A stretch of DNA of 55,480 nucleotides from Fischerella thermalis PCC 7521 (lineage in GTDB: Bacteria > Cyanobacteriota > Cyanobacteriia > Cyanobacteriales > Nostocaceae). Shown here piece by piece: positions 9,034 through 53,758 of this stretch. Location of the stretch: contig NZ_AJLL01000034.1 of assembly GCF_000317225.1 (NCBI RefSeq), positions 1 to 55,480 on the forward strand, given 5' to 3'. Position 1 is the first letter of the stretch. Each line of letters starts with the position of its first letter. The notes below the pieces were generated by a model that did not search any database, had not been told where the DNA came from, and was given only the letters and a program-made list of their open reading frames with translations. The position numbers were made by a program, and so were the translations under genes.

Positions 9034-9531
9034 ATGACAAAATTAATACATTTGAGTATCCCGCCAATGAATAAATTCCAAGGCTAATAACACAAGTCCG
9101 TTTCAACGAACTCAAAGACTTTCTTAGTCAGATTTATCTGACTTTAACTATTAGCCAATAAATAAATTTATTGGCGCTGTGAAAATCTCGTGCAAGATAT
9201 CAGATTACCAATTACCAATCACCAATGATATGAATGTTCGAGTGGACATGAGATGACTCAATAAGTATCTTAATCGTTATTTCTATATCTACTCTTGTGG
9301 GAAAAACTGAGATTTTGAGCAATATTTATTACTTTTATTGAGGTTGGCAATCGAAAATACTCATGACCGACTGCGTTTGAATTTGCTAACGTAGTCTTAA
9401 CATTTTGAAAAATATTACTAACCAAGCTTACAAAAAGTCTGCTAGCACTATATAGAAGTGTTGGTATTTTCAGAGCTATAGATAGTTGTGTTGGAGTGTT
9501 AACTATCACTCATGACAAAAAAGAGGGGGTT
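9034..9531. other. Gap before the PHP gene, holding one structured repeat
   Basis: Nearly 500 bases lack a credible gene. Copy C of the structured repeat family (9093-9198) is the main feature. The remainder is AT-rich, with short ATTACCAATTACCAATC-type heptad repeats at about 9204-9225. Confidence 0.55.
9093..9198 (+). repeat. Structured dispersed repeat, copy C
   Basis: This 106-base element runs from CAAGTCCGT to GTGCAAGAT. It contains the perfect hairpins AGTCAGAT-TT-ATCTGACT and GCCAATAAAT-AA-ATTTATTGGC. It aligns along its length with copy D (10315-10420), and its parts align with copies A (21090-21200) and B (53255-53400). See the first finding for covariation. Confidence 0.8.
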
Positions 9532-10221: not shown

Positions 10222-10314
10222 ACACAGGAAAAATTGTGAATTCTGAATTCTGAAATTTCCAGCATTCATCATTTTGTACTTACCCTATATCCCGTTGTGA
10301 GAATAAATTCTCGA

Positions 10315-10420
10315 CAAGTCTGTTTAAACGAACTCAAAGACTTTCCTAGTCAGATTTATCTGACTTTTGCTATGAGCCAAGAAATTTATTTCTTGGCGGT
10401 ACGAAAAGTTGGTGCAAGAT
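10315..10420 (+). repeat. Structured dispersed repeat, copy D
   Basis: This 106-base element contains AGTCAGAT-TT-ATCTGACT and GCCAAGAAAT-TT-ATTTCTTGGC hairpins and ends GGTGCAAGAT. Compared with copy C, the last stem has a G-C pair replaced by T-A on both arms, a compensatory change. Confidence 0.8.
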
Positions 10421-10597
10421 ATGAACTGACACCCCTACTCTGTTCCTAATGAATTTTGAATTTTTAATTGCTTTCTCCCAATCTCCCCATCCCTTGTGTC
10501 ACCTTCCAATGTGGCACAGCACCGAAATGACTACAAGGTGATTGTTGCTACCATTGTGCATACAATATAACTATAATTTCTGCGTTGGAGGGCTTCT
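10421..10597. promoter_or_regulatory. Leader of the secreted-protein gene
   Basis: TATAAT at 10572-10577 is a good -10 candidate, 20 bases before the ATG, but no well-spaced -35 was found. GGAGGG at 10587-10592 is a strong ribosome binding site for the ATG at 10598. Confidence 0.4.
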
Positions 10598-20826: not shown

Positions 20827-21089
20827 TTCTCGACCATATTAATTTTGACGGGTGAATCGGATGTTCAATTTCTCTTGTTTTGTTTTTACTTCCTGGTCTA
20901 CCCTGCGGGTACTCTACCTTAAGCCTATAAGCGCGTCTAGGTGACCGGAAGCGGAGCTACTGCGTTGGACGGGTTTCCCGGCTTGTAGCACGTGGCGTCC
21001 AAGACTGCGACCCCTTCACCGCTGTTGCGTCTAATGCGTCCATTGTGGTTCGTTACTTTACCCATCAAATTGAGGTTAACTCACCTGAG

Positions 21090-21200
21090 TTGCACCTCGC
21101 CCTGAGTACGTCTTGAACTGATTCAACCCTCATAGCCCAAGTCCGTTAAAACGGACTCAAATGTATATCCAGTAAGCTTTAGCTTACTTGAGCTTTGAGA
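21090..21200 (+). repeat. Structured dispersed repeat, copy A
   Basis: It begins TTGCACCTCGCCCTGAGT, shared almost exactly with copy B, and includes CCCTCATAGCCCAAGTCCGT, the tetraloop hairpin GTCCGT-TAAA-ACGGAC and the perfect hairpin AGTAAGCT-TT-AGCTTACT. The 3' portion (GCCAA hairpin and GGTGCAAGAT end) seen in the other copies is missing or diverged. Confidence 0.75.
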
Positions 21201-53118: not shown

Positions 53119-53758
53119 ATTTTTTTCCTTGATTAATATCATGGGTAAATTATTTTGATTATGTCGATTTTTATCGACACATTATTAATTAACTATATTT
53201 TTATGGTTCAAATTAAATGAGTCTTTTTCCCACACCAAGGAAGGTTTAGAGAAAGTTGCACCTCGCCCTGAGTGCGCTTGAACAGAAGTTCAACCCTCAT
53301 AGCCCAAGTCCGTGAAAACGGACTCAAATGTATATCTAGTAAGCTTGAGCTTTGAGCCAATAAATTTATTTCTTGGCAGGCGAAAAAGTAGGTGCAAGAT
53401 CCAAGTTGATTAGTTTGAAAACAGCTGTATTTTTATGTGTTGGTATACAGATTTCCTAAGTTCAAAATCAAACTTTTCTAGGAATTATATATACATAGTA
53501 TACTTTTGAACTTAAGTTTGTATCCGTATTAATTCTGATTTTATTGTTATGTTAATTTGTAGAAATAGGTGGTTTGTCGCTGAGAATATTGTGGAGAAAT
53601 CGCTTCGTAGTAAGCAATTCAATTTCATGGAGTATACCTGCGCTCACTACAAAGCCGACTAAACTAACACGGCATCTCAAAATTTATGTTTATACTAAAT
53701 AAAATAATTGATACCAAAACCCTACTTAGTAGAAAAGCTAAAAGCCATACTCCGACTT
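53119..53758. other. Gap holding structured repeat copy B
   Basis: About 640 bases between two minus-strand genes. Besides copy B (53255-53400), the rest is AT-rich with no identifiable gene or terminator. Confidence 0.5.
53255..53400 (+). repeat. Structured dispersed repeat, copy B (fullest copy)
   Basis: The 145-base element starts TTGCACCT (53256-53263) and ends AGGTGCAA (53390-53397), its exact complement, so the ends form a closing stem; next to it CGCC pairs with GGCG (53379-53382 side). Inside are the hairpins TTGAAC/GTTCAA, GTCCGT-GAAA-ACGGAC, a shortened AGTAAGCTTGAGCTT and GCCAATAAAT-TT-ATTTCTTGGC with one mismatch. The order is as in copies C and D. Confidence 0.8.

Follow-up and report, generated by a model that had tools for sequence, protein, structure and literature searches.

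A four-hairpin core, probably kept at the DNA level, in several kinds of cyanobacterial MITE and in four worn repeats of Fischerella thermalis

Four repeats in the window, which is the whole stretch of 55,480 nucleotides of Fischerella thermalis PCC 7521 analysed here, are read as relics of non-autonomous MITEs whose four-hairpin core is shared across MITE kinds and kept at the DNA level, a reading to which we give a probability of about three in four. The same core was found in mini-transposons with three duplication lengths (3, 4 and 9 bp) and two transposase partners. The occurrence of one hairpin core within several unrelated mini-transposon kinds is apparently new: titles and abstract openings, mainly in the open literature, gave no earlier description of a four-hairpin core, though one may exist.

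The four copies (A–D) lie where the preliminary description had placed them and can be aligned with one another, and none of the four is overlapped by an open reading frame of at least 80 amino acids. Their main features are as follows.

Copy C, 9049..9209, plus strand: right end CGTGCAAGATATCAG present, without a left terminal repeat.
Copy D, 10268..10431, plus strand: right end GGTGCAAGATATGA present, left end worn.
Copy A, 21084..21200, plus strand: left half with hairpins H1, H2 and H3 (21171-21188), right part missing.
Copy B, whole element, 53256..53397, plus strand: left end TTGCACCT at 53256-53263, right end AGGTGCAA at 53390-53397.
Hairpin H1 of copy B, 53278..53293, plus strand: TTGAAC/GTTCAA; five H1 column pairs covary at E < 0.05.
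Hairpin H2 of copy B, 53307..53324, plus strand: AGTCCGT/ACGGACT; one H2 column pair covaries at E < 0.05.
Hairpin H4 of copy B, 53356..53377, plus strand: GCCAATAAA/TTTCTTGGC with one mismatch; no H4 pair covaries at E < 0.05.

The compensatory stem changes reported earlier among these copies are present. One stem reads GCCAAGAAAT/ATTTCTTGGC in copy D and GCCAATAAAT/ATTTATTGGC in copy C, with one unpaired position in copy B, and a second reads AGTCAGAT/ATCTGACT in copies C and D versus AGTAAGCT/AGCTTACT in copy A. Hairpins in the same order had been claimed for all four copies, which is correct for H1 to H3 in copy A; however, this copy is truncated at the right, without H4 and the right end, and copy B has lost part of H3. 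The outer pair TTGCACCT/AGGTGCAA closes copy B, whose outermost bases are worn and which has no visible target duplication. Since copy B lacks this duplication and copies A, C and D are damaged, the window copies alone are no proof of mobility.

Beyond the window, blastn with copy B, for which 40 of 65 first-look candidates were scored, gave at least 43 matches in the F. thermalis genome at E ≤ 10. A covariance model (R1) was built from 20 copies of this genome; with 150 of 2609 first-look candidates scored, it gave at least 149 matches at E ≤ 1. These represent at least 100 distinct places, of which at least 74 reach 40 bits and four lie in the window; the dispersed family proposed from four copies therefore stands. 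R1 matched 48 of the 60 genomes searched, F. thermalis included, at E ≤ 0.001. In a phylum-wide search at least 49 of 292 genomes matched at E ≤ 1e-6 (28 of the same family, F. thermalis included, 18 of the same order and 3 elsewhere in the class); as nine candidates were scored per genome, a genome without a match there may still carry copies. When 18 relatives were searched again at E ≤ 1e-8, each genome gave between 4 and 133 matches with both strands counted.

An exact 31-base half-core pattern, searched in one genome per species, was found in at least 110 stretches. Among the 80 stretches listed, 78 carry cyanobacterial names (Nostocales, Symploca, Microcoleus, Planktothrix, Pleurocapsales and others) and two are contigs of one metagenome-assembled genome (MAG) labelled Chloroflexi. 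The dispersed core copies in this MAG lie at L340:7638-7818 and L352:3000-3179, the second cut by the contig end. The core in one MAG contig scores 61 bits, and the L340 copy has a GC content near 55% and ends that share CATTACCCACAT with a cyanobacterial type. By eye, the genes around the MAG core do not look cyanobacterial; contamination of the MAG may be an alternative source of these copies. Plasmid searches with family queries gave three matching records in all. On the Anabaena sp. 90 plasmid pANA02 (L410), a degenerate copy has a formylglycine-generating-enzyme-like gene on one side and, on the other, the avd gene of a diversity-generating retroelement. A phage search gave no match for one core or for the type-a transposase described below, and the half-core pattern was absent from viral contigs. 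In Limnofasciculus baicalensis a core-bearing element is repeated three times in tandem with a period of 186 bp (L353:1423-1911).

From H1 to H4 the core measures 102-126 nt, with a median of 114. Its left half consists of H1 (GCC...GGC), NATAGC NN, H2 (AGTCNNN T..A NNNGACT) and a variable linker, and its right half of H3 (AGTCNNN T..A NNNGACT), NN GCTATN and H4 (GCC...GGC). With perfect pairing of both arms, the loop of 4 nt almost always has the form T-N-N-A. The right half approximates the reverse complement of the left, which gives the core near mirror symmetry and lets one model match it on either strand: opposite-strand overlapping R1 matches occur in 58 of 89 sources in alignment A3 (the best 150 of 203 matches), and one locus, L182, scores 116.3 bits on each strand. 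The core is flanked by terminal repeats, which differ between subfamilies. Five further F. thermalis loci (L025, L033, L037, L038 and L043) have only the right end of copy B (H4 and the terminal repeat) in common with it. Their left parts differ from that of B, resemble one another and contain ATGACCAACA...TTACTTGA; they apparently form a separate MITE family that has this right end too.

Type-a elements, the type found in the window, have the ends CTNATATCTTGCACC / GGTGCAAGATATNAG and measure 159-182 bp where both ends are present, except for one of 78 bp. Identical 4-bp flanks were found in 15 of the 31 non-orthologous type-a copies with recognisable ends (TTAA in five), compared with a mean of 1.9 and a maximum of 9 in 20000 permutations; the other 16 copies have no identical 4-bp flank. 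One locus (L084) was excluded from this set as the ortholog of another (L013), and the 78-bp element (L023) is counted among the 15. The type-a ends also enclose a transposase gene (DDE_Tnp_1) on plasmids: in Nostoc sp. C052 the unit from CTYATATCTTGCACC to GGTGCAAGATATRAG has TTAA on either side, and in N. carneum it has TCGG. The best NCBIfam models for this transposase are IS701 and IS4, all below their cut-offs. A further transposase copy in Calothrix sp. NIES-4101 has its left end at the edge of the record, and for one in Trichormus variabilis no left end was found. The F. thermalis genome contains a decayed copy of this IS701/IS4-like element (L174) and a core-less deletion derivative (L175); no intact transposase of type a or b was seen in it. 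Because the ends are IS701/IS4-like and the 4-bp duplication is frequent, type-a copies were most likely mobilised in trans by such a transposase.

Type-b elements carry the core between other ends. In one genome (G003), 20 fetched copies of 166-167 bp are nearly identical, with the ends AGACYTCTTGCAAAA, and 16 of the 20 have identical 3-bp flanks (AAT, ATT or ACT). The same genome has a 922-bp element with type-b ends and identical ACT flanks, whose IS5-type transposase is split over two reading frames (HTH_Tnp_4 and DDE_Tnp_4, with NF033581 below its cut-off); ANT duplications are those of the ISL2 group of IS5. At the start of the contig, about 100 bp away from this element (L153:221-1142), there is a 5S rRNA match (3-119). 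Types a and b both have terminal inverted repeats and target duplications, and IS200/IS605-type (PATE/REP) elements are characterised by having neither.

Further outer inverted repeats around cores include GGGCTATTTCATTCT, GGTGTCAACTTAA, GTCGAATGGCACTAAG and TTGTCATTACC. Elements with GGGCTATTTCATTCT ends (type h) have 9-bp duplications in two of three copies, judged by eye, and no partner insertion sequence for GGTGTCAACTTAA ends was found among the 98 sites listed from two genomes. Overall, outer inverted repeats with a score of at least 22, the 99% shuffle value, surround 37 of 93 cores, a few of these repeats being host hairpins; the other 56 score below 22, their repeats being worn, lacking or short. 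By eye, copies are also nested in hairpin loops of other copies (the H3 loop in L134, the H2 loop in L272 and the H4 loop in L275), and five elements with GGTGTCAACTTAA-type ends lie inside GTAG-like palindromes. These five are all in one genome (G030: L257, L259, L260, L262 and L263), within GTAG-like repeats such as GTAGGGGCACGGCATTGCCC, and one of them, L257, is core-less.

Individual sites were also compared with those of relatives. The flanks of copy B occur without the element in both of two congeneric genomes, in agreement with the empty sites that the preliminary description had suggested looking for. The junction differs by 9 bp in this comparison and shows no duplication, which marks copy B as worn. 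Copies C and D are absent beside the same genes in three relatives, the spacer being otherwise changed. None of 18 F. thermalis copies is covered by an open reading frame of at least 150 amino acids, versus 42% of random windows in the same loci (1363/3236). The earlier idea of a non-autonomous mobile element is well supported by the ends that copies have in common with insertion sequences, by the target duplications and empty sites, and by the nesting.

The presence of one core in at least three end types, with their three duplication lengths, could also mean that the core moves or recombines on its own, as a cassette entering different MITEs, and is not the inherited interior of one MITE lineage that has exchanged its ends. 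Core-less elements with the same ends exist (L175 and L257, and L155-L157 of G003, which have type-b ends and another interior), as such traffic would predict. Against this reading, neither a core boundary with its own target duplication nor a core inserted by itself into an otherwise intact MITE turned up, and an enzyme for such movement is not known; we consider it possible but doubtful. We put forward just as tentatively its wider form, in which the core is a DNA cassette carried by transposons and passed among unrelated families of mini-transposons, perhaps even between phyla (as the MAG labelled Chloroflexi may suggest), because its strand-neutral extruded hairpins are useful to any carrier. 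They might, for instance, shape replication, repair or target choice, and hairpin-templated repair would keep the arms perfect. In the reading that we prefer, the core would pass between MITE kinds by nesting and by recombination among the many copies in each genome.

Covariation among 20 F. thermalis copies was estimated by five measures, two of them weaker. Cells changed on both sides numbered 66 versus 26.3 in shuffles, and the covariation score was 0.218 versus 0.113 (neither reached in any of 500 shuffles), and the proposed structure outscored every slid version. The weaker measures gave 16 versus 12.2 pairs with a change on both sides (19 of 500 shuffles) and 41 versus 39 further pair types (126 of 500). 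A larger set, 93 cores less the two reverse-strand rows of L135, comprised 91 distinct cores from many genomes; R1 served to locate them and MAFFT to align them, using the sequences only. With our own script, in the manner of R-scape, a G-test with average-product correction was compared with 60 alignments simulated on a FastTree tree; this null keeps the substitutions per branch, and the smallest possible E is 0.017. Nine column pairs reached E < 0.05, all nine inside the proposed stems (five in H1, one in H2 and three in H3) and none outside them. No pair in H4 reached this level (best E 0.32), and none in the outer stem P0 or the long-range stem P2 was significant. In P2, where nearly all pairs are invariant and the test is correspondingly weak, the single variable pair shows no clear covariation. 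As significant covariation is confined to H1-H3, the inference of a fold from covariation is supported for these local hairpins and not for a global fold. A fixed four-way junction, attractive by eye, was set aside on the same P0 and P2 results.

Covarying hairpins may be kept as RNA or as DNA, and the two differ in their mismatches: an RNA tolerates G.U on the transcribed strand and does not tolerate A.C. Among isolated mismatches, flanked by Watson-Crick pairs, we counted 67 G.T versus 53 A.C (binomial p 0.24), and a per-copy strand preference was absent (summed imbalance 62 versus 71 expected). As a control, the acceptor and T stems of 11 tRNAs drawn from the fetched loci (132 pairs) had 12 G.T versus 1 A.C, which differs from the elements at Fisher p 0.015, the control being small. 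Without the filter, stem mismatches were 127 G.T versus 92 A.C (p 0.02). Isolated G.T also exceeded A.C in H3 (8 versus 1) and H4 (21 versus 8), together 29 versus 9 (p 0.002); the counts elsewhere were 5 versus 13 in P0, 10 versus 10 in H1, 5 versus 6 in H2 and 18 versus 15 in P2. The strand of each core was picked by its score with R1, a criterion biased towards G.T, and no hairpin is aligned as poorly as H4. Part of the H3 and H4 excess may result from this choice of strand by model score, and for these reasons the lean towards DNA was kept.

The loops point in the same direction, as they recur as the exact reverse complement on the same stem. In the 20 near-identical G003 copies, the H3 loop is TTCA in 12 and TGAA in 8, and the H2 loop is TGAA in 19 and TTCA in 1, with no intermediate for either. 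Hairpin formation in DNA is known to produce such loop inversions. Given the near mirror symmetry, the loop inversion and A.C mismatches almost as common as G.T, the pairing seems to be kept at the DNA level, although this lean is less firm than the overall parity alone would allow. RNA made from both strands could be another source of symmetric pairing.

These results bear directly on the structured RNA proposed in the preliminary description, considered here as a non-coding RNA family (stand-alone or a cis-regulator) whose dispersal is incidental, with selection acting on the RNA fold. The significant covariation in H1, H2 and H3, the conserved loops and linker motif, the stable predicted folds of single copies (computed without a shuffled control) and the excess of G.T in H3 and H4 and in the unfiltered count are all consistent with it. 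Against it stand the near parity of G.T and A.C among isolated mismatches overall, a model that matches both strands with equal scores at L182, loops that invert, long-range stems (P0 and P2) without significant covariation, and whole elements that duplicate their target and are absent at orthologous sites. Moreover, no Rfam family reached its gathering score in the window, and in 20 other loci only the 5S rRNA beside the IS5-type element (L153) exceeded a cut-off. The CRISPR repeat model RF01359 scored 25.8 bits on copy B against a cut-off of 50, a chance hairpin match. We therefore do not favour the structured RNA, which we regard as improbable.

A more specific candidate, an RNA of the HEARO/IscB-type omega class or one linked to TnpB, has in its favour only a sequence block to which the preliminary description had pointed. 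That block, CCCTCATAGCCCAAGTCCGT, is one subfamily's form of the family-wide motif GGCTNATAGCNNAAGTC and not a HEARO signature, and RF02033 gave no match for copy B at E up to 10 or for 20 other loci at E up to 0.05. The terminal inverted repeats and target duplications are also of the DDE-transposon kind. As far as the Rfam model can show, this identity is dismissed as extremely improbable. Nine window proteins, most of them encoded beside copies, have no IscB/TnpB-type Pfam domain, and three of these have no Pfam family at all.

If the pairing is a property of DNA, it could be purely mutational, with quasi-palindromes made perfect by template switching and no selection on structure. Short-loop hairpins alone covary and long-range stems do not, the loops invert without intermediates and the pairing is close to strand-neutral, all as this process would predict. 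The hairpin plan, the AGTC/GACT bases and the GGCTNATAGC motif are nevertheless conserved across many genera, so mutation bias alone is insufficient; we hold this explanation to be a real possibility, though short of even odds. Our preferred account would join hairpin-templated correction to selection or bias for palindromic cores. When DNA is replicated or repaired, correction and inversion templated by the hairpins would help to maintain them, as would the persistence of copies with a good palindromic core. Our best guess is that the core acts as a strand-neutral DNA structure, with hairpins extruded on either strand, and not through an RNA product.

Several known repeats resemble these elements in part. 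The Nostoc repeats SDR4-6 of Elhai et al. 2008 (Genome Res) are reportedly units of 21-27 nt with compensatory mutations in a common hairpin fold, and the small dispersed repeats (SDRs) of that study are said to occur in cyanobacteria as nested copies and inside minitransposons. They thus share with the present elements the compensatory mutations in a hairpin fold, the nesting and the location in minitransposons; in contrast to their 21-27 nt, the present core has 102-126 nt and four hairpins inside elements with terminal repeats, a comparison of plan. The IS701/IS4-like and IS5 elements have the same terminal repeats and duplication lengths as types a and b, respectively, but the copies read encode a transposase and are without the four-hairpin core. 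Elhai et al. 2008 is cited on small dispersed repeats in PMC4390886. The type II MITEs of Anabaena sp. 90 have ends without similarity to the insertion sequences of that genome (PMC3542288), and Nezha is a cyanobacterial MITE named in PMC3733652 and in the reference list of PMC10969869. Such MITEs are like the present elements in being short, non-coding, mostly intergenic and present in many copies, with terminal inverted repeats and predicted hairpins; unlike the Anabaena sp. 90 MITEs, the present elements have several end types with one core, and partner insertion sequences for two. The GTAG-tagged REP palindromes, single tagged hairpins (PMC3733652), are likewise dispersed and also found in filamentous cyanobacteria; among the present elements, some copies with GGTGTCAACTTAA ends are inserted inside GTAG-like palindromes.

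MITEs are usually regarded as the worn remains of one insertion sequence each. An interior common to MITEs with different ends, duplications and partners would mean that this interior has an evolutionary life of its own, on a scale of tens of copies or more per genome in a large part of the cyanobacteria. For RNA searches, strong covariation in a dispersed repeat can be an effect of palindromes at the DNA level, and counting G.T versus A.C mismatches helps to separate an RNA from such an effect. The near-identical copies within one genome are, finally, a natural system for measuring hairpin-templated mutation.
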